64,000 nucleotides of DNA from Streptomyces luomodiensis (GTDB taxonomy: Bacteria; Actinomycetota; Actinomycetes; Streptomycetales; Streptomycetaceae): contig NZ_CP117522.1 in the NCBI RefSeq assembly GCF_031679605.1, forward strand, positions 8,184,001-8,248,000, read 5' to 3'. The notes below the pieces were generated by a model. It was not told where the DNA came from. It worked only from the letters and a program-made list of their open reading frames with translations, and ran no database searches. The translations under genes and the position numbers were made by a program. Below, one piece after another: positions 14,211-41,771 of the stretch (position 1 is its first letter; each line of letters begins with the position of its first letter).

Positions 14211-15593
14211 CTACGAGGAAGACCCCAGCGCGTGGCCCCGACCGGCGGCCACCGGTGCCGGGGCAGAGACCCGGCCAGGGGCGGTGGCCGGGTTCGGGGC
14301 GTGGGGCGCGCTCGTGACGGTGGCTGCATCCGGGGCGTGGTGTGCGCCCGAGTCGTTGGCCGGGGCCGTGGCCGTGATGGTGGCTGAGCCCAGGGCGTGG
14401 TGTGCGCCCGAGTCGTTGGCCGGGGCCGTGGCCGTGATGGTGGCTGAGCCCAGGGCGTGGTGTGCGCCCGAGACGGTGGCCGGGGCCGTGGCCGAGACGG
14501 TGGCCGAGGCCGTGGCGAGGGGTGCCGTCGGGACTCCCTCCAGCAGTGCCCGGATGTCCCGGACGGCCGCCCGGCCCGCCCGGTTGGCGCCGACCGTGCT
14601 GGCCGACGGCCCGTAGCCGACCAGATGCACCCGCGGATCGCGGACCGCCCTGGTCCCCTCGACGGCGATCCCACCACCCCGCTCGCGCAGCCTCAGCGGG
14701 GCAAGATGGTCGATCGCGGCGCGGAAACCGGTGGCCCAGAGGATGATGTCCGCCTCGACGTGGCGCCCATCCGCCCAGGTCACCCCGTCCGGGGTGATCC
14801 GCTCGAACATCGGCAGCCGCTCCAGCACCCCCTTCTCCCGGGCGCGCCGCATCGCCTCCGTCATGGGCAGCCCGGTCACGGACACCACGCTCTTCGGCGG
14901 CAGTCCCCGCCGCACCCGCTCCTCGACCAGCGCCACGGCCGCCCGCCCCTGTTCCTCGCCGAACGGCCCCTCACGGAACACCGGCGGGCGCCGCGTCACC
15001 CAGGTGGTCTCCGCCGCGACCTCCGCGATCTCCAGCAGATGCTGTACCCCGGAGGCGCCGCCCCCGACGACGATCACCCGCCGCTCCGCGAATGGCTCGG
15101 GCCCCGGGTACTGGGCGGTGTGGAGCTGCCGTCCCCGGAAGGTCTCCTGTCCGGGGTAGCGCGGCCAGAACGGCCGGTCCCAGGTCCCGGTCGCGTTGAT
15201 CAGCGCCCGCGCGGACCACGTTCCGGCCGAGGTCTCGACGTGGAGTCGGCCATCGTCCCCGTCGCGTACGGCGGCGACGTGCACGGGCCGGACGACCCGC
15301 AGATCGAAAGTGCGCTCGTACCGGGCGAAGTACGCGGGGACCACCTCGGACGAGGGCCGCTCGGGATCCGCGTCGTCGCTGGTCAGCCGCATGCCGGGCA
15401 GGTCGTACATCCCGTGCACCTTGCCGTACGTCAACGACGGCCACCGGAACTGCCACGCCCCGCCGGGCGCGGGCGCGTGGTCGAGCACGACGAAGCCCGA
15501 GCCCGGCTCGTACCCGGCCCGCCGCAGGTGGTAGGCCCCGGACAGCCCCGCCTGCCCGGCGCCGATGACCACGACGTCCACGTTGTTGTTCAT
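14211..15593 (-). CDS. Flavin-containing monooxygenase (CzcO/FMO type) with repetitive C-terminal tail
   Basis: This NAD(P)-binding FAD oxygenase has 460 residues. The FAD motif VIGAGQAGLSGAYHL is at the N-terminus, the FMO-like FRGRQLHTAQYPG about residue 145, the NADPH motif VVGGGASGVQHLLEIAE about 165, and the closing VHLVGYGPSASTVGANRAGR about 340. Together these suggest oxidation of an organic substrate. The core ends near residue 360. The last 90-100 residues are an Ala/Thr/Pro/Ser/His-rich tail encoded by 60-base tandem repeats, which the family does not normally have. It is convergent with lacI2; a 282-base gap at 13929-14210 shows only GC-rich short repeats. The native substrate is unknown. 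Confidence 0.82.
   Translation of the reverse strand: MNNNVDVVVIGAGQAGLSGAYHLRRAGYEPGSGFVVLDHAPAPGGAWQFRWPSLTYGKVHGMYDLPGMRLTSDDADPERPSSEVVPAYFARYERTFDLRVVRPVHVAAVRDGDDGRLHVETSAGTWSARALINATGTWDRPFWPRYPGQETFRGRQLHTAQYPGPEPFAERRVIVVGGGASGVQHLLEIAEVAAETTWVTRRPPVFREGPFGEEQGRAAVALVEERVRRGLPPKSVVSVTGLPMTEAMRRAREKGVLERLPMFERITPDGVTWADGRHVEADIILWATGFRAAIDHLAPLRLRERGGGIAVEGTRAVRDPRVHLVGYGPSASTVGANRAGRAAVRDIRALLEGVPTAPLATASATVSATAPATVSGAHHALGSATITATAPANDSGAHHALGSATITATAPANDSGAHHAPDAATVTSAPHAPNPATAPGRVSAPAPVAAGRGHALGSSS
14341..14520. repeat. 60-bp tandem repeat coding the monooxygenase tail
   Basis: Bases 14341-14400 and 14401-14460 are identical over all 60 positions. A third, diverged unit occupies 14461-14520. 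Because 60 is a multiple of three, the repeat keeps the reading frame and encodes a 20-residue unit on the minus strand containing NDSGAHHALGS. Perfect identity indicates recent expansion or replication slippage. Confidence 0.9.
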
Positions 15594-15804: not shown

Positions 15805-16052
15805 CTACGGTCCGTCGCGTGCAACTCGGCTCTGACGCGCAGCGGCAACCCGATGGAACTCTGGACCATGGGGGGCGGCGCCGCCGCCGACTGACGGGCC
15901 GGCGGACGTGGCGCCGGTGGCGACCTCCGCGCTCGGTGGCCGAGGCCCATCCGGACTGCGGCTAGCTGGCGGCTGGGCACGCCCCCTCCGGTGCGGCGCC
16001 CCGCCCCTCCCGGTACCCCCCTAAAAACGCTTGATCTGACGCAACTCATTTG

Positions 16053-16235
16053 TCAAATGGTGCCCAGGGGCGCCCCCTGCTCCGCTGCTAACAAGGCCAG
16101 TGCGCCGACGAACGCGATCTCCACCGAGATGGGTGGCTGCCGGCCCCAGCAGCGGAGTCTGTTCCCCGAGCCGGTGCCGACGTCGGACAGTGTGCGGCGC
16201 ATCGCGTCGACGGCGTAGGCCAAGGGGTTCGCCAA
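16053..16235 (-). pseudogene. Remnant of ABC-2 permease C-terminus
   Basis: On the minus strand, about 60 residues start with LANPLAYAVDAMRRTLSD and continue to VEIAFVGALALLAAEQG. This matches the last transmembrane part of drug-exporter ABC-2 permeases, including the intact one at 21541-22413 (LANPLSYATDAMRQTL). No start or upstream body of the gene is present, so it is a decayed fragment. Confidence 0.65.
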
Positions 16236-16385
16236 CACCGCGCCGCAGCCGGACGTGTCCCGGACAAGCCCCAGGCACGCCAATGACCAGTACGGACAAG
16301 CTGCACGATGTCCCGGACGCTTGAACCTGTTGCGCCGTACGCGACAGCCGCAGCACGCTTCCGTGGCATGCAGCCCGCCGCTGCC

Positions 16386-16484
16386 GCAGAGGGGCTGACC
16401 GGGGAGAGCGGGCTGTAGTAGCTGACCAAGCGCGTGCTGGACTCCGCCCTGGAGGGCGAGATCAGCAGCGGGGGTACGGCGTGA
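16386..16484 (+). pseudogene. IS256-family transposase N-terminal remnant
   Basis: The plus strand reads GLTGESGL, two stops, then LTKRVLDSALEGEI. Streptomyces IS256/MutL-type transposases carry a similar stretch with two glutamines where the stops are. Both CAG codons appear to have become TAG. Nothing of the catalytic domain remains. Confidence 0.6.
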
Positions 16485-16599
16485 CCGGATAGTGGCGTCC
16501 GCGGCCTTCAGACCGCACCGGTGAACGAACGTCTGTCGCTCGATACCAGTGTTGACGCTGTCAGGCGGCGAGAGCGGGCCTGGGTGAGTGGGCTCCGCC

Positions 16600-16742
16600 G
16601 CCGTACGGACTTCCGGGTGAGACGGCGGGTCATCAACGTGATGGACACCCAGGCGATGAGCGTCTCGCTGACCTGCGGCAGCCTCTCGTGGCCCCGGCAG
16701 CGTCGGCGGGCTCGCATGATCCACGACAGCGAGCGTGCCACT
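16600..16742 (-). pseudogene. IS5-like transposase C-terminal remnant
   Basis: The minus strand encodes ARSLSWIMRARRRCRGHERLP then QVSETLIAWVSITLMTRRLTRK. This resembles the C-terminus of IS5-family transposases, which contain the final catalytic Glu region and end in TRRLT. The upstream part of the gene is absent. Confidence 0.6.
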
Positions 16743-16801
16743 CGACATGCACCGGAGGTCTGTCTGATGAATGGACCTCGGTCATACATATGGGGGAGAA
16801 C

Positions 16802-17674
16802 ATGCGCTATGAGGAGGCTCCACACCGCCGTTTCCGCGAGCACCCGGCTGTGCCGGATGCTCCATCCCTTGTCCCGGCACAGCCCGACGTTGCTCTACCC
16901 GATCCCCGATTACGCGGTGAGGTGCTCTGCTACCGCGTTTTTCCGTGCGCTGACGGTGTCCCGCACTCTCTCACCACCGACGGCCGCGTTCGCATGATCT
17001 TGCTCGCCGAGCGCGGTACGGAACGCCACCCGGATGTTCCCCCAGTGCTGATCGACTCGTTGCTGTCCGGGCTGAAAACCCCTACAGGCGACACGTTGGG
17101 GGACGGAGAACACGGGACCGGCGTGGAGGTGGCCCTGGAACCATGGGCCGTGTTCCGTCTTTTCGGCACATCGCCGGAGGACCTGGGGGCCGCGATCAAC
17201 GACCGGGACCGTTTCCCGGGTTCCCTCGTCCACGCCGTGGCGAGGAATGTCTCCGGCACCAGGGACTGGGCGGCCCGCCGCGCCGTGATCGACGCGGCCC
17301 TCGTGGAGCGCCAGGCAGCGAATCCGCCGTGCCCGGTGCCGCTGCGGCAGGCCTGGCGGCGGCTCGTGGAGACCGGAGGCAGGATTCCCATCAGGCGGTT
17401 GGCCGCCGATGTCGCCTGGAGCCAGAACCAGCTGGCGCGCCGTTTCCGGGAGCAGATCGGGCTCTCTCCGAAAGTCGCGGCCCGTGCACTGCGCCTGCGT
17501 CGTGCGCTGCGCCTGCTGGCAACCGGTCAGGCCGCCGTCCGCGCCGCCATGGACTGTGGTTTCTGCGACCCGGCCCATCTGAGCCGGGAATGCACCGCCC
17601 TGACCGGGCGACCGCCGAGCCAACTGCTCGCCGCCCGCTCGGTATTCCACCAGAGGACCGTACGAAGACGGTGA
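16802..17674 (+). CDS. AraC-family regulator of the lasso cluster
   Basis: This 290-residue protein has a C-terminal AraC double helix-turn-helix (about 195-280): IPIRRLAADVAWSQNQLARRF, RLRRALRLLATGQAA and CGFCDPAHLSRECTALTGRPP. The N-terminal part resembles the cupin-like sensing half seen in streptomycete AraC proteins. ATG at 16802 follows a strong GGGGGAG site; longer frames begin in the upstream transposon debris. Codon 37 is TTA (16910-16912), so translation should need the bldA leucyl-tRNA. It lies 95 bases before the precursor gene and in the same direction, so it is probably the cluster activator. Confidence 0.85.
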   Translation: MRYEEAPHRRFREHPAVPDAPSLVPAQPDVALPDPRLRGEVLCYRVFPCADGVPHSLTTDGRVRMILLAERGTERHPDVPPVLIDSLLSGLKTPTGDTLGDGEHGTGVEVALEPWAVFRLFGTSPEDLGAAINDRDRFPGSLVHAVARNVSGTRDWAARRAVIDAALVERQAANPPCPVPLRQAWRRLVETGGRIPIRRLAADVAWSQNQLARRFREQIGLSPKVAARALRLRRALRLLATGQAAVRAAMDCGFCDPAHLSRECTALTGRPPSQLLAARSVFHQRTVRRR

Positions 17675-27691: not shown

Positions 27692-28664
27692 GATGTTCGA
27701 GCAAGAACTCGAGGAAGTGGTTGTCGAAGTCGACATCGCGTCGATATCGACAGCTGAATCACCCAGAAGTTCAGGGGAGGATCCGGAGCACATACAAGCG
27801 CTGGCGGAAACCGAAGCGCCGTTACCGCCCATCATCGTTCACCGGTCCACGATGCGGGTGGTCGACGGCGTGCACCGGCTACGGGCCGCGGAGCTCCGCG
27901 GCGACAAGAAGATCAGGATCAGGTTCTTCGACGGCAGCAAGGCCGACGCGTTCGTCCTCGCCGTCGGATCGAACATCACTCATGGACTGCCACTGTCGAT
28001 GGCGGACCGGAAGTCCGCGGCCGCGCGCATCATCGTGTCGCACCCCCAGTGGTCGGACCGGATGATCGCGTCGGTGTCGGGCATCTCGGCGGGCACCGTG
28101 GCCGAGATCCGCCGCCGGACGTCGGCCCAGGACGTGGACGGCGGCAGCCGGATCGGCCAGGACGGCCGGGTCCGTCCCATCAACAGCGCCGCGGGGCGCG
28201 AACTGGCGAGCAGGCTCATCACGGCGAACCCGGGCCTGTCGCTGCGGCAGATCGCCCGCGCCGCGGGGATCTCCCCGGAGACGGCCCGGGACGTCAGAAA
28301 CCGTATGAGCAGGGGCGAGGACCCCCTGCCGAAGTCGCGCGGCGCGGCCAAGGCGACCGCGGGCCGAGCGGCCGAGGCGGCGCTGGACCGGGCCACGGCG
28401 GGCGCGGCCGCCGCCGCGGTGGTCCCGATGGCCGAGCGCCTCGCGGCCGTGCACCGCCTCACCTCGGACCCCGCCCTGCGGTTCAACGAAACGGGCCGCA
28501 GGCTGCTCCGGCTGCTCAACGTCAACATGCTCAAGCCGGAGGAATGGCAGGAAATCATCGCGAACGTACCGCCGCACTGCAGCAGCATCGTCGCCAGCCT
28601 CGCCCGTGAGTGCGCGGGGATGTGGGACGAGATCGCGGTGCGGGTGGATCTCCAGCTCGCCTAG
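27687..28664 (+). CDS. StrR/Bbr-like pathway-specific activator (ParB-domain)
   Basis: This protein of about 325 residues belongs to the StrR family (StrR, NovG, Bbr, Tei15*), which activates aminoglycoside, aminocoumarin and glycopeptide clusters. The ParB-like block reads LPPIIVHRSTMRVVDGVHRL, RAAELRGDKKIRIRFFDG and HGLPLSMADRKSAA. A helix-turn-helix follows: SDRMIASVSGISAGTVAEIR (about 125-150), with a second candidate LSLRQIARAAGISPETARDV. GTG at 27687 is chosen because GGAG lies six bases upstream; ATG at 27693 is nearly equivalent. The TTA codon at 27822-27824 makes translation bldA-dependent. The exact boxes at 28697, 32318 and 41447 match the known target of this family. Confidence 0.9.
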   Translation: MAMFEQELEEVVVEVDIASISTAESPRSSGEDPEHIQALAETEAPLPPIIVHRSTMRVVDGVHRLRAAELRGDKKIRIRFFDGSKADAFVLAVGSNITHGLPLSMADRKSAAARIIVSHPQWSDRMIASVSGISAGTVAEIRRRTSAQDVDGGSRIGQDGRVRPINSAAGRELASRLITANPGLSLRQIARAAGISPETARDVRNRMSRGEDPLPKSRGAAKATAGRAAEAALDRATAGAAAAAVVPMAERLAAVHRLTSDPALRFNETGRRLLRLLNVNMLKPEEWQEIIANVPPHCSSIVASLARECAGMWDEIAVRVDLQLA

Positions 28665-28696: not shown

Positions 28697-28725
28697 GTCC
28701 AACCAGCGAGGCTCTCCGGTTGGAC
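28697..28725. promoter_or_regulatory. StrR/Bbr-type box 1 (GTCCAA-N17-TTGGAC)
   Basis: GTCCAA at 28697-28702 and TTGGAC at 28720-28725 with a 17-base spacer match the Bbr consensus exactly. It lies 32 bases after the StrR-like stop and in front of no forward gene, between convergent transcription units. Confidence 0.65.
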
Positions 28726-31237: not shown

Positions 31238-32365
31238 ATGCTTGTGATGCGCACCATGGCTGTCATCGGCACCGGCCTGATCGGTACCTCGGTCGCGCTC
31301 GCCGCCGCCGCGCAGGGCGTGTCGGTGTATCTCTCCGACCGCGACAGGACCGCCGCCAGGACCGCCGCCGCACTCGGCGCGGGCCGCGCGCAGGAGCCGC
31401 CCGAACCGGTCGACCTGGCCGTGCTCGCGGTGCCGCCGAGCCAGGTCGCCGCCGTTCTGATCGCCTGTCAGGGCCGCGGCCTGGCCCGCGCCTACACCGA
31501 TGTGGCGAGCGTGAAGGCCGGGCCGGAGCAGGCCGTGCTCGGCCGCGCCCCGGACCCCGCCGCCTACGTCGGCGGTCATCCGCTGGCCGGCCGGGAGCGG
31601 TCCGGGCCGCTGGCGGCGCGGGCCGAGCTGTTCCGGGGCCGGCCCTGGGCGCTGACGCCGCACCCGCTGACCTCGCGCGCGGCCCTGGACCGGGGCCTGG
31701 AGCTGGCCGAGCTGTGCGGCGCCGCCCCGGTGGTGATGCGGAGCCGGGAACACGACGAGGTGGTGGCGCTGACCTCGCACGTTCCGCATCTGCTGGCCGC
31801 TGTGATGGCGGCCCGGCTGCGCGACGGCCCGGCCGGGGTGCCGCTGCTGGCCGGGCAGGGCCTGCGCGATGTGACCCGGATCGCCGCCGGCGACCCCCGG
31901 CTGTGGGGCGACATCCTGCGGTCCAACGCGCGGGCCATGGCCGGGGTGGTGCAGGAGCTACGAGCGGACCTCTCCCGGGTGGCGGCGGCGCTGGACGTGC
32001 TCGCCGAGGCCGACGACGGGGCCCGCGACCAGGGCGTACGGACCCTGGAGGAGCTGCTCGCCCGGGGCGTCGCCGGGCTCGCCCGGCTCCCGCGGCCGGG
32101 CGCCGGGCCGCCCGAGGGGCGGGCGGCGCTGCGGGTCCTGGTCCCGGACCGGCCCGGCGAGCTGGCCCGGTTGCTGGGCGCCGTCGCGGCCTTCGGCGTC
32201 GCCGCCGACGACATCGCCGTGGAGGCCGCGGAGGAGAGCGGGCTGAGCGTGCGCATCCCCGTTCCCACGGCCGACGCCGAGCGGATCGAGGCCGGGCTCG
32301 ACGCCGTCGGATACGCCGTCCAAGTGCGCAGTCCGGCCAATTGGACGGCGTTGTCGAAACGCTGA
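31238..32365 (+). CDS. Prephenate dehydrogenase
   Basis: This 375-residue TyrA-type enzyme produces 4-hydroxyphenylpyruvate from prephenate and so feeds both tyrosine and Hpg. NAD motif MAVIGTGLIGTSVALAAAA is at the N-terminus, GGHPLAGRERSGP about residue 110, the central helical domain holds SHVPHLLAAVM and a C-terminal ACT-like domain begins at LRVLVPDRPGELARLLGAV. Dedicated copies are common in glycopeptide clusters. ATG at 31238 is chosen; 31247 or 31256 are possible. A StrR-type box overlaps the last codons. Confidence 0.9.
   Translation: MLVMRTMAVIGTGLIGTSVALAAAAQGVSVYLSDRDRTAARTAAALGAGRAQEPPEPVDLAVLAVPPSQVAAVLIACQGRGLARAYTDVASVKAGPEQAVLGRAPDPAAYVGGHPLAGRERSGPLAARAELFRGRPWALTPHPLTSRAALDRGLELAELCGAAPVVMRSREHDEVVALTSHVPHLLAAVMAARLRDGPAGVPLLAGQGLRDVTRIAAGDPRLWGDILRSNARAMAGVVQELRADLSRVAAALDVLAEADDGARDQGVRTLEELLARGVAGLARLPRPGAGPPEGRAALRVLVPDRPGELARLLGAVAAFGVAADDIAVEAAEESGLSVRIPVPTADAERIEAGLDAVGYAVQVRSPANWTALSKR
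32318..32346. promoter_or_regulatory. StrR/Bbr-type box 2 (GTCCAA-N17-TTGGAC)
   Basis: GTCCAA at 32318-32323 and TTGGAC at 32341-32346 with exactly 17 bases between. It lies inside the 3' end of the prephenate dehydrogenase gene and 79 bases before hpgT, so it should drive the hpgT-dpgABC-halogenase operon. Confidence 0.8.
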
Positions 32366-38480: not shown

Positions 38481-39341
38481 ATGCCCGTCCACCGGATCAA
38501 CGGGATCCAGCTGCACTACGAGGAGCACGGAACGGGGGACCCGGTCGTCATGGTGACCGGCACCGGGGCCCCCGGCCGGATGTGGCGCACCCACCAGGTC
38601 CCCGCGCTCAAGGCGGCCGGCTTCAAAGTGATCACCGTCGACAACCGGGGCATCCCGCCCAGCGATCCCGGCACCGAGGGCTTCACCCTCGACGACATGG
38701 CCGCGGACATCGCGGGCCTCATCGAGCACCTCGGCGCGGCCCCGTGCCGGGTCGTGGGCTTCTCCCTGGGCGGCATCATCGTCCAGGAACTGCTGCTCGC
38801 CCGGCCGGAACTCGTCCGGGCGGCCGTGCTGATGGCGACCAGCGGCCGGGCCGACACCTTCGCCACCGCCCAGGCGATCGCGGAGATGGACCTGGCCGAC
38901 AGCGGGGTGAAACTCCCGCCCCGCTACGCCGCCTACGTCAACGCGCTACAGAGCCTGTCCCCGCAGACCCTGGGCGACGAACAGCGGCTCCGCGACTGGC
39001 TCGACATCTTCGAGCTCTCCGCCGTCGACCTGGCCTCCGTCCGTGGCCAGCTCGGCCTGCAACTCATCCCCAACCGGCTGCCGGCGTACGCGGCCATCCG
39101 CTGCCCGTGCCTGGTGCTGAGCTTCCAGCACGACCTGATCGTGCGGCCGCAGCTCACCCGCGAGGTCGCCGACGCCATCCCCGGCGCCCGCCACACCGAG
39201 ATCCCCGGCTGCGGACACTACGGCTACCTGGAGAAACCGGCCGCGGTGAACGCCGCGCTCATCGACTTCCTCACCGCGCCCCTCGCCGATGGGACACCGG
39301 CCCGGACCCATGAGCGGGCGGGTGCGGAAAGCCGACCGTGA
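38481..39341 (+). CDS. Alpha/beta hydrolase (possible proofreading thioesterase)
   Basis: This 286-residue alpha/beta hydrolase starts two bases after the halogenase. The nucleophile elbow is GFSLGGIIVQE (Ser about residue 96), the acid lies in SFQHDLIVRP and the His in GCGHYGYLEKP, a complete Ser-Asp-His triad. Similar stand-alone hydrolases in NRPS clusters remove misloaded groups or cleave an intermediate. Its last 71 bases overlap the 3' end of the sensor-kinase gene on the other strand. Confidence 0.82.
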   Translation: MPVHRINGIQLHYEEHGTGDPVVMVTGTGAPGRMWRTHQVPALKAAGFKVITVDNRGIPPSDPGTEGFTLDDMAADIAGLIEHLGAAPCRVVGFSLGGIIVQELLLARPELVRAAVLMATSGRADTFATAQAIAEMDLADSGVKLPPRYAAYVNALQSLSPQTLGDEQRLRDWLDIFELSAVDLASVRGQLGLQLIPNRLPAYAAIRCPCLVLSFQHDLIVRPQLTREVADAIPGARHTEIPGCGHYGYLEKPAAVNAALIDFLTAPLADGTPARTHERAGAESRP

Positions 39342-40584
39342 AGACGAGGCCACCCTCCGGGCGGGCCTCGACGCCGAGGGTGGCGTCGTGCGCGACCGCG
39401 ATGGCCTGCACGATCGACAGCCCCAGACCGAGGCCGTCCCGGTTCGTCCGGGGGTCGCCGAGCCGCTGGAACGGCTGGAACATCTGGTCCACCGCGCCCG
39501 GCGGCACCACCGGACCGGAGTTGGCCACCGTCAGCACCGCCCGGCCGGACCCCTCCGCCACGGCCACCTCCACCCAGCCGTGCGGCTCGTTGTGCCGCAG
39601 TGCGTTGTCCACCAGATTGACCACGAGCCGCTCGGCCAGCGGCCGGTGGCCCGCCGCGACCGCGGCCGACGGCGAGCAGCGCAGGGTGACCAGCCACCGC
39701 TCCGCGTCCGCCCGGCGCGCGGTGACGACCTCCTGCGCGAGCCGGCCCAGGTCGAACGGCCGGCGCACCTCGATGCCCGCGTTGCCGCGGGCCAGCGTGA
39801 GCAGCGCCTCGATCAGCCGCTCCTGCTGGGCGCCCGCGGCGAGAATCCGCTCATGCGCCGCGCGCAGCGACGCCACGTCCGCGTCGGGATCCGACAGGGC
39901 GAGCTGCCCCAGCGTCCGCTGCCGGGCGAGCGGGGTGCGCAACTCGTGCGAGGCATTGGCGACGAACCGGCGCTGCGCCTCGAACGAGGACTCCAGCCGG
40001 CCGAGCAGACCGTCGAACGTGTCGCCCAGCTCCTTGAGCTCGTCGCTCGGGCCCTCGAGGGCCAGACGCCGGTGCAGACTCGTCGCCGAGATGTCCCGGG
40101 CCGCGGCGATGACCGTACGCAGCGGCCGCAGTATCCGCCCGGCGACCACCCAGCCCAGCGCGATCGAGATCATCGACATCAGCGCGAGCGCGATGGCGGA
40201 CTGAACGAGGAGGTCGTGCAGCACGGCGTCCCGCTGAAGCTCCATGAGCTCCCGCGCCGGGCCCGGAAGGATGTCGCGGACACTCTCCCCACTGTGTCCC
40301 TGGGGCGGCGGCACCGGCGCGGCGGGCCCGGCGGTCTCGCCCTCCCGCGGACGACCGCCGCCCGGGGCGGGCTGGACCCCGGAGAGGGAGCCGTTGGCGT
40401 TGAGCACCAGCAGATACGTGACCGTCAGCAGCGCCGCCCCGGAGAGCAGGAACAGCGCCCCGTACAGCAGGGTCAGCTTCAGCCGGACCGTACGCCGCGG
40501 CAGCAGCGGACGCGCGAGCCGGCCGGTGAGCCGGGGAAGCGGCGGAGACATGAGCCGGCCGGTGAGCCGGGAGAGCGGCGGCAT
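39271..40584 (-). CDS. Two-component sensor histidine kinase
   Basis: This 437-residue kinase has two membrane segments (about 35-60 and 128-150) around a roughly 65-residue extracellular loop. A HAMP linker follows (GRILRPLRTVIAAARDIS), then H-box FVANASHELRTPLARQRTL (phospho-His about 216), N-box LVVNLVDNALRHNEPHG and G-box DGLGLGLSIVQAIA. The N-terminus holds two copies of RLTGRL. It resembles VanS/CutS-type kinases; in peptide-antibiotic clusters such pairs often sense envelope stress or the product. The ligand is unknown. The response regulator ends 9 bases upstream. Confidence 0.88.
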   Translation of the reverse strand: MPPLSRLTGRLMSPPLPRLTGRLARPLLPRRTVRLKLTLLYGALFLLSGAALLTVTYLLVLNANGSLSGVQPAPGGGRPREGETAGPAAPVPPPQGHSGESVRDILPGPARELMELQRDAVLHDLLVQSAIALALMSMISIALGWVVAGRILRPLRTVIAAARDISATSLHRRLALEGPSDELKELGDTFDGLLGRLESSFEAQRRFVANASHELRTPLARQRTLGQLALSDPDADVASLRAAHERILAAGAQQERLIEALLTLARGNAGIEVRRPFDLGRLAQEVVTARRADAERWLVTLRCSPSAAVAAGHRPLAERLVVNLVDNALRHNEPHGWVEVAVAEGSGRAVLTVANSGPVVPPGAVDQMFQPFQRLGDPRTNRDGLGLGLSIVQAIAVAHDATLGVEARPEGGLVFTVGFPHPPAHGSGPVSHRRGAR

Positions 40585-40593
40585 CGGCGGGCC

Positions 40594-41247
40594 TCAGATC
40601 CGGTAGCCGCGCTTGGCGACGGTCTCGATCACCGGCGGATCGCCCAGCTTGGCCCGCAGCCTGCTGATGGTGATCTTCACGGCGCTGGTGAACGGATCGG
40701 CGGCCTCGTCCCAGACCCGCTCCAGCAGCTCCTCCGCCGAGACGGCCCGGCCCTTGGCCGACAGCAGCAGCTCCAGCACACCGAACTCCTTGGGCGCCAG
40801 CTCCAGCGGCCGGCCCGCCCGGGTGGCCTTGCGGCGCGCCGTGTCCACCACGAGATCTCCGTGGCGCACCACCGGCGGCACGGCCGGATGCGCCCGCCGG
40901 GCCAGCGCCCCGATCCGGGCCACCAGCACCGGGAAGTCGAACGGCTTGGCCAGATAGTCGTCGGCCCCCAGATTCAGCCCGTCGACGAGATCCTCCGCCG
41001 AGGCGGCGGCGGTCAGCATCAGCACCCTGCTGCGGCAGCCCGACGTGATCAGCTCGGAACAGATCTCGTCGCCGTGCACCCCGGGCAGATCCCGGTCCAG
41101 CACGATCACGTCGTAGTCACTGAGCAGAGCGCGCTCCAGACCGCTCTCCCCGTCGTACGCCACGTCGACGGCCATCTGCGCCCGCCGTAAGCCGACCGCC
41201 ACCGCCTGCGCCATTTCCTGGTCGTCCTCCACCACGAGCACGCGCAC
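40594..41247 (-). CDS. OmpR-family response regulator
   Basis: This 217-residue regulator has a receiver domain (VRVLVVEDDQEMAQAVAV; phospho-Asp in DVIVLDRDLPGVHG, Thr in MLTAAAS, Lys in YLAKPFDFP) and a winged-helix domain (LELAPKEFGVLELLLSAKG, ITISRLRAKLG, VAKRGYRI). GTG at 41247 has GGAGGGGGAG upstream; the longer frame runs into the repeat array. It is transcribed with the kinase and divergently from the mbtH-ABC-NRPS operon. Confidence 0.9.
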   Translation of the reverse strand: MRVLVVEDDQEMAQAVAVGLRRAQMAVDVAYDGESGLERALLSDYDVIVLDRDLPGVHGDEICSELITSGCRSRVLMLTAAASAEDLVDGLNLGADDYLAKPFDFPVLVARIGALARRAHPAVPPVVRHGDLVVDTARRKATRAGRPLELAPKEFGVLELLLSAKGRAVSAEELLERVWDEAADPFTSAVKITISRLRAKLGDPPVIETVAKRGYRI

Positions 41248-41267
41248 TCGCTCCCCCTCCTCGGTCC

Positions 41268-41298
41268 GTCCAACCGGCCATGACCACACCACTTGGAC
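41268..41298. promoter_or_regulatory. Variant StrR-type palindrome (GTCCAA-N19-TTGGAC)
   Basis: GTCCAA at 41268-41273 and TTGGAC at 41293-41298 have a 19-base spacer, two more than the Bbr consensus. It lies 20 bases upstream of the response-regulator start, on the other side of the tandem array from box 3. Confidence 0.5.
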
Positions 41299-41346
41299 AA
41301 CGAGATCCAGAATGCGCCGGACACGGTTTCCACGGGGTTTCGGCCG

Positions 41347-41458
41347 CAGTCCACGTGCTGTCGCCCAAGTGCCCCTGTCCAAGTGCCCTTGCCTAAGCGC
41401 CCTTGTCCAAGTGCCGTTGTCCAAGTGCCGTTGTCCAAGTGCTGTCGTCCAAGTGCCG
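41347..41458. repeat. 14-bp tandem array containing GTCCAA half-sites
   Basis: Eight consecutive 14-base units run from 41347 to 41458, with consensus TTGTCCAAGTGCCG. Five carry an intact GTCCAA and the others are one or two changes away. The last intact GTCCAA (41447-41452) is the left half of box 3. The array fills much of the 317-base divergent promoter between the response regulator and mbtH. Confidence 0.85.
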
Positions 41459-41475
41459 AGAATACGCGGTTGGAC
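41447..41475. promoter_or_regulatory. StrR/Bbr-type box 3 (GTCCAA-N17-TTGGAC)
   Basis: GTCCAA at 41447-41452 and TTGGAC at 41470-41475 with exactly 17 bases between. It lies 90 bases before mbtH and should drive the mbtH-ABC-NRPS operon. Confidence 0.8.
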
Positions 41476-41564
41476 GCCGCTTCAATAGTCGACCTTGCTG
41501 CTTCCGACAGGCCCCCGTTACTTTGAATTCCGGCCTCACCCCGGAGCAGTTGAGAGGAGCGGTG

Positions 41565-41771
41565 ATGACCAACCCGTTCGACGACGAAAACGGTTCGTTT
41601 CTGGTCCTGCTGAACGACGAGGGCCAGTATTCGCTGTGGCCCGCCTTCGCCGAGGTACCGGCCGGATGGCGGGTCGTATTCGGCGAGGACGCCCGCAAGA
41701 ACTGCCTGGACTACATCGAGGAGAACTGGCGGGACATGCGCCCCAAGAGCCTCATTGACCAGCTCACATAG
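41565..41771 (+). CDS. mbtH: MbtH-like protein
   Basis: This is a 68-residue MbtH-family chaperone that binds and activates NRPS adenylation domains. It shows the family pattern [20 protein letters not shown] then [16 protein letters not shown], and [17 protein letters not shown] with the conserved tryptophans. GAGAGGAG precedes the ATG. It heads the exporter-NRPS operon behind box 3. Confidence 0.96.

Follow-up and report, generated by a model that had tools for sequence, protein, structure and literature searches.

In the 64,000-nucleotide stretch of Streptomyces luomodiensis DNA that was analysed (the window), the intergenic region between a response-regulator gene on the minus strand and an mbtH gene on the plus strand (41248-41564) contains a row of short repeats that look like one half of an activator-binding site. 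This raises the question of whether the array is a part of the control of the surrounding antibiotic cluster or an accident of DNA copying. The original prediction had described eight 14-base units at 41347-41458, most of them with GTCCAA, which run into an operator-like box (box 3) whose left half is the last unit. The description was borne out with a shift of 2 positions (Table 1; the unit register was set by eye): eight units stand head-to-tail, GTCCAA is exact in units 3, 5, 6, 7, and 8, the hexamer has one change each in units 1 and 2 and two in unit 4, and the left half of box 3 coincides with unit 8. TRF gave the array a score of 123 at a period of 14 (86% match) and of 134 at a period of 28 (82%), and the array has the tandem units expected of a minisatellite or VNTR. 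When triple half-sites with 14-bp spacing and at most 3 mismatches were searched for, the 10.04-Mb genome yielded 6 overlapping matches, all within the array, and the reversed-pattern control yielded 0 in the same genome; the array is thus not a product of chance. Tandem arrays as such are common in these regions, where 46 rows of period 10-30 and at least 4 copies, some of them overlapping, were counted in 1.03 Mb. A coding reading was dismissed because the 14-bp step breaks any frame, and an RNA reading because the window has no Rfam match at gathering scores. A search of the open-licence literature on tandem-repeat or minisatellite promoters led nowhere.

Table 1 Features of the window discussed in the text
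Feature	Position	Strand	Remark
14-bp array, eight units, consensus GTCCAAGTGCCGTT	41349..41460	+	5/8 units with exact GTCCAA
Box 3, GTCCAA-N17-TTGGAC, StrR/Bbr-type operator match	41447..41475	+	left half is array unit 8
Putative mbtH promoter, TTGCTG-N18-TACTTT	41495..41524	+	hexamer spacing from box 3
N19 palindrome, GTCCAA-N19-TTGGAC	41268..41298	+	just upstream of response-regulator start
Second N17 operator-like box	28697..28725	+	between 3' ends of StrR-like and FMN-dehydrogenase genes
Third N17 operator-like box	32318..32346	+	final bases of prephenate-dehydrogenase ORF, upstream of aminotransferase ORF
MbtH-like protein gene	41565..41771	+	first gene after array; Pfam PF03621; start by eye
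OmpR-type response regulator	40594..41247	-	divergent from mbtH; Pfam PF00072 and PF00486
Sensor histidine kinase	39271..40584	-	Pfam; best NCBIfam model VanS-O, below cut-off
StrR/Bbr-like activator	27693..28664	+	ParB-type N-terminal domain and central HTH

Besides the StrR-like activator, the cluster encodes an FMN dehydrogenase and a glyoxalase/dioxygenase-superfamily protein, which have a place in a hydroxyphenylglycine route, as well as a prephenate dehydrogenase, an aminotransferase, a chalcone-synthase-type PKS, a halogenase, the two-component pair, MbtH, an ABC transporter, and a three-module NRPS; a long open frame after the NRPS extends past the window edge. The existing annotation of the StrR-like protein lists PF02195 and HTH domains, a fresh Pfam scan gave HTH and not PF02195, and the relatives of the protein are named ParB N-terminal domain or streptomycin biosynthesis protein. 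Its AlphaFold model (mean pLDDT 78.9, pTM 0.44) is nearest to structures of the clamp proteins ParB, Noc, and KorB (Foldseek, best E 9.4e-07). Since the rmsd is above 12 and the TM by query 0.21-0.35 in the 25 matches with E up to 0.001, this agreement is at best one of single domains. ParB sites are palindromes, unlike the half-sites of the array, and the predicted ParB-like fold leaves room for half-site capture by the activator. Our search of the open-licence literature for StrR together with ParB and CTP found no papers. In agreement with the model, a ParB-like N-terminal domain of StrR proteins has been published, and its role and DNA-binding mode are stated as open in the passages of that article considered here (PMC10886168).

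Researchers have proposed the site GTCCAaN17TtGGAC for the glycopeptide activators Bbr, Dbv4, and Tei15*, and the site of AoStrR1 is given as GTCCAN18TTGGAC, in the passages of the source that were covered (PMC7852140). Three boxes of the window (41447, 28697, and 32318) match exactly the operator consensus of the glycopeptide StrR-type activators (Bbr, Dbv4, Tei15*/Tcp28, AoStrR1), and, as in the glycopeptide setting, they belong to a peptide cluster that includes a StrR-like gene. Box 3 has the two inverted halves at N17, a putative cognate activator is encoded within the same cluster, and the box is intact in all nine genomes (9/9) that were found with this promoter; judged from its sequence, box 3 is a predicted operator of a known kind, the StrR/Bbr type. 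The streptomycin StrR consensus, GTTCGACT-N11-AGTCGAAC, was ruled out as the site, as it had 0 matches in the window at up to 3 mismatches.

The array, unlike the glycopeptide operators, consists of left halves alone, set in direct orientation at 14-bp steps and without right halves of their own. The view that a StrR/Bbr-type half-site has been copied into the units, which lead into a full-operator match, was supported, and so was the remark that direct half-sites are not the binding mode of this family, at least by the published inverted site in the passages cited above. A half-site matrix built from 17 distinct operators outside the species, with the window and Streptomyces sp. S465 left out, scored units 3, 5, 6, 7, and 8 at 16.2, like other operator halves; the score fell to 7.7 for units 1 and 2 and to 1.1 for unit 4. 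When dimer sites were scanned over spacings from N8 to N48, box 3 reached 32.1 and the N19 palindrome 28.3; units 7 and 6 also reached 32.1, solely through the right half of box 3, at N31 and N45. All other pairings in the region scored 11.6 or below, and the best array pairing apart from box 3's right half was one of 11.6 (N20). Units 1-7 have no inverted partner half at 17 bp, exact TTGGAC does not occur within 41349-41446, and hidden dimer sites inside the array were ruled out by the spacing scan.

These scores bear on the proposal that the array is a selected regulatory platform, whose unit number tunes the mbtH-NRPS operon by raising local activator or by titrating it. Five of the eight units do carry a perfect half-site that scores like a real operator half, and the array adjoins the operator directly; three units are broken, however, one of them down to the score of 1.1, there are no right halves in the array, and lone half-site binding by the StrR/Bbr-type family is not described in the literature passages covered. 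Moreover, extra half-sites are not a trait of StrR/Bbr-type boxes: after boxes with identical 30-bp flanks had been merged, 29 were kept, and within 60 bp of 27 of them (the array-bearing two excluded) there were 2 additional half-sites against about 0.9 expected (0.98 for all 29 boxes), which is no clear excess. We consider such a platform possible but rather unlikely, whether it would capture the activator through single half-sites, contacts with the box 3 dimer, or alternative pairing with box 3's right half.

A further point against the platform comes from the distribution of the array. A halogenase-based search of genome contigs gave 50 loci, and 6/50 (L007-L012) have the same two-component/mbtH layout, with regulator and MbtH above 96% identical. 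Their intergenic regions measure 317 bp in L007 (S465), 276 bp in L008 (S. antioxidans), 222 bp in L009, 221 bp in L010, 222 bp in L011, and 213 bp in L012, and only L007 carries the array. From a genus sample of 392 genomes came a further close relative (G096, L060) and, at a greater distance, a cluster in which box 3 stands before mbtH (G280, L077), both without the array; the remaining box-3 matches in this sample were the window, S465, S. iranensis (no difference from L010 over 300 bp), and S. antioxidans (the same sequence as L008). The array is thus present in two of the nine genomes with the box-3/mbtH promoter, the window genome and S465, which is labelled as the same species, and absent from the other seven, which are six close relatives and the more distant cluster. 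No array was found in L032 (N17 box) and L041 (N16 box), which are distant clusters with a GTCCAA/TTGGAC box before mbtH. The box-3 pattern occurred in 2/296 relatives, the window's own included, and in 4/392 genomes of a second genus draw, which largely repeated the first and gave none new; the three-half-site pattern in 394 family genomes was the window's own only, in a partial sample whose draw omitted the array-bearing S465. Because the genome samples are partial, array-bearing relatives may have been missed. Of the 2 additional half-sites counted near other boxes, one lies 13 bp upstream of the L077 box and overlaps a stop codon (by eye).

The original prediction had suggested comparing unit number between related strains and had named absence from producing relatives with the same expression as evidence against itself. 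The comparison gave a difference across lineages, 8 against 1, and none within the species, where both genomes have 8 units, and absence as such holds for seven of the nine genomes with the promoter. The idea that cluster control needs the array was not supported: these seven genomes have the same operator and promoter without it, extra half-sites are scarce at other boxes, and the N19 palindrome is not conserved. A -10-like hexamer is conserved downstream of box 3. In L077 it reads TATTGT, at 44 bp, and in the other genomes with this promoter, namely the window, L007-L012, and L060, it reads TAC(T/C)TT, at 43 bp. A sigma-70 consensus scan returned no promoter at its threshold, so that we infer the mbtH promoter from these hexamers. 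Box 3 separates the array from this promoter, and the box-to-promoter spacing is unaffected by the array.

A tree of five concatenated cluster genes, which is unrooted and was built without L060 and L077, places the window and S465 (1.3% apart) about 9% from L008-L012, with L008 nested among array-less species. Because the window and S465 split off and L077 is also array-less, the simplest reading would be a gain of the array on the window's lineage. It could be argued instead that an ancestral array was lost or decayed in the other species, since L008 has an insert of about 55 bp (about 14470-14529) upstream of box 3, at the very insertion point of the array, and some 14-mers of this insert match array units at 10/14 (by eye). 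However, the likeness of the insert to the array is no better than that of shuffles (907/2000), and it has an 8-bp period of its own, a periodicity reached by only 4/5000 shuffles; on these two grounds the insert was ruled out as a decayed array. With L008 nested among array-less species and L077 without an array as well, we regard loss or decay as very unlikely. Because of its own period and its lack of likeness to the array, the L008 insert appears to be a second repeat, without GTCCAA, that grew at the same point, and this independent repeat suggests that the insertion point tolerates repeats.

As for how a gained array would have grown, the unit CCGTTGTCCAAGTG is repeated and then followed by a closing CCG, which fits slippage between CCG triplets 14 bp apart. 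The left CCG is kept in L009-L012 and L060, where the right side is CAG, and the right CCG is kept in L008 and L077, where the left one is not. The ancestral CCG-N11-CCG seed is therefore a putative one, pieced together from different relatives; the complete seed was found in none of the array-less genomes examined, which counts against the slippage explanation.

The two array-bearing strains allow the turnover of the array to be compared with that of its surroundings. Between the window and S465, units 1-7 differ at 7/98 positions and the intergenic flanks at 1/219 (Fisher p 0.0014), and the array shows the higher turnover than its flanks that is typical of a minisatellite or VNTR. Six other regions of the 21.5-kb alignment likewise reach 7 differences in 98 columns, and the divergence of the array is raised but not unique. 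Like bacterial minisatellites and VNTRs, the array has short head-to-tail units, occurs in one lineage only, is more variable than the intergenic flanks, and has putative microhomology at the unit ends; unlike them, its unit holds an operator half-site, and its unit number is the same in the two available strains.

All seven differences fall at positions 8 and 11-14, and GTCCAA is hit by none of them (0/7). The naive probability of this avoidance, (8/14)^7, is about 0.02, but it is unreliable because the units copy from one another and the differences are not independent. Within units 1-7 of the window, the 10-bp half-site has 5/70 changes against 8/28 in the linker (p 0.008, likewise not independent), and by variable columns the half-site has 4/10 against 4/4 (p 0.085). 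The sparing of GTCCAA between strains and the low variation of the half-site are the main hint that the half-sites matter, and they speak for the platform, as does position 8, the site of two of the seven differences, which is T or C in other operators too. Against selection, three of the eight hexamers are broken in both strains, two at one base and one at two. In a bolder form, the array would be a selected, fast-evolving antenna, in which direct half-sites catch the ParB-like StrR activator and pass it to the operator, and slippage in unit number and type tunes the output of the antibiotic cluster; we hold this to be improbable.

The other operator-like boxes place box 3 in context. The window holds three exact N17 sites and one N19 site, and GTCCAA-N16-20-TTGGAC occurs at 6 places in the whole genome, four of them inside the window. 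In 53 sources (the window, the 50 halogenase loci, L060, and L077), a tally of spacings from 8 to 26 gave 28 sites with N17, 2 each with N16, N18, and N19, and 1 each with N9 and N26, so that N17 is the rule. The two with N19 are the site at 41268 in the window and its counterpart in S465. The N19 palindrome, which had been pointed out as flanking the array on the response-regulator side, is real as sequence and is intact in the window and S465 only; in 6/6 close relatives outside the species (L008-L012 and L060), its counterpart has CTGGAC as the right half and spacings of 14 to 23 bases, and it is therefore not a conserved operator. Next to this palindrome, within 41268-41320, lies a CCAGAATG stretch that L007-L012 and L060 have conserved and that is a possible regulator site. 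The box at 28697-28725 lies between convergent 3' ends and not ahead of any gene start; it is intact in L007, L009, L010, and L011 and not intact after the L008 StrR-like gene. In L041 and L019, where a box also stands after the StrR-like gene, a gene start in the same direction comes next (by eye), which suggests that the window's box may have been stranded by rearrangement. Elsewhere, L015 has a big tandem array at 16055-16821, with a 24-bp unit in about 24 copies at 16063-16635 and further rows around; an N17 box at 15959 precedes its start by about 70 bp, and its consensus unit is without GTCCAA.

The array could also be thought to serve the divergent response regulator, whose GTG start at 41247 was assigned by eye and whose best NCBIfam model, vanR-O, scored below cut-off. 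OmpR-type response regulators bind direct repeats, and the repeats of the array do adjoin a divergently transcribed gene of this family; however, the usual repeat step is 10-11 bp and not 14 bp, five array-less species carry regulators 96.3-97.7% identical to the window's, and what is repeated is clearly the left half of box 3. We find a platform for this regulator hardly credible.

Altogether, we think it probable that the array is a young, species-level minisatellite that arose by slippage on the left half of box 3, and that box 3 works as the operator of the mbtH-transporter-NRPS operon. As the published consensus and the conservation of the box suggest, the StrR/Bbr-like activator of the cluster would bind GTCCAA-N17-TTGGAC as a dimer, upstream of the mbtH promoter. 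The array would have grown from the left half of this operator through replication slippage, in which a direct repeat CCG-N11-CCG around the half-site (CCGTTGTCCAAGTGCCG) probably produced the exact 14-bp step. It would have originated in the lineage that leads to the window's species, at the promoter-distal flank of box 3, which would leave the promoter spacing undisturbed. Because the units are left halves only, with one right half in common, normal binding of activator dimers to them is not expected. Any effect of the array is probably weak, with the activator held near box 3 or slightly mopped up, and a mild antenna or titration effect is possible. Because the examined related species have the docking site without the copies, the array would be a recent copying accident and not a required switch. 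If it is neutral, it would be a clear natural example of operator half-sites multiplying by slippage, in which sister species still preserve the state without an array. A functional array would give an antibiotic cluster a promoter element that can be tuned; it would also mean that a StrR-family activator can use half-sites, which bears on how these ParB-like proteins bind DNA.
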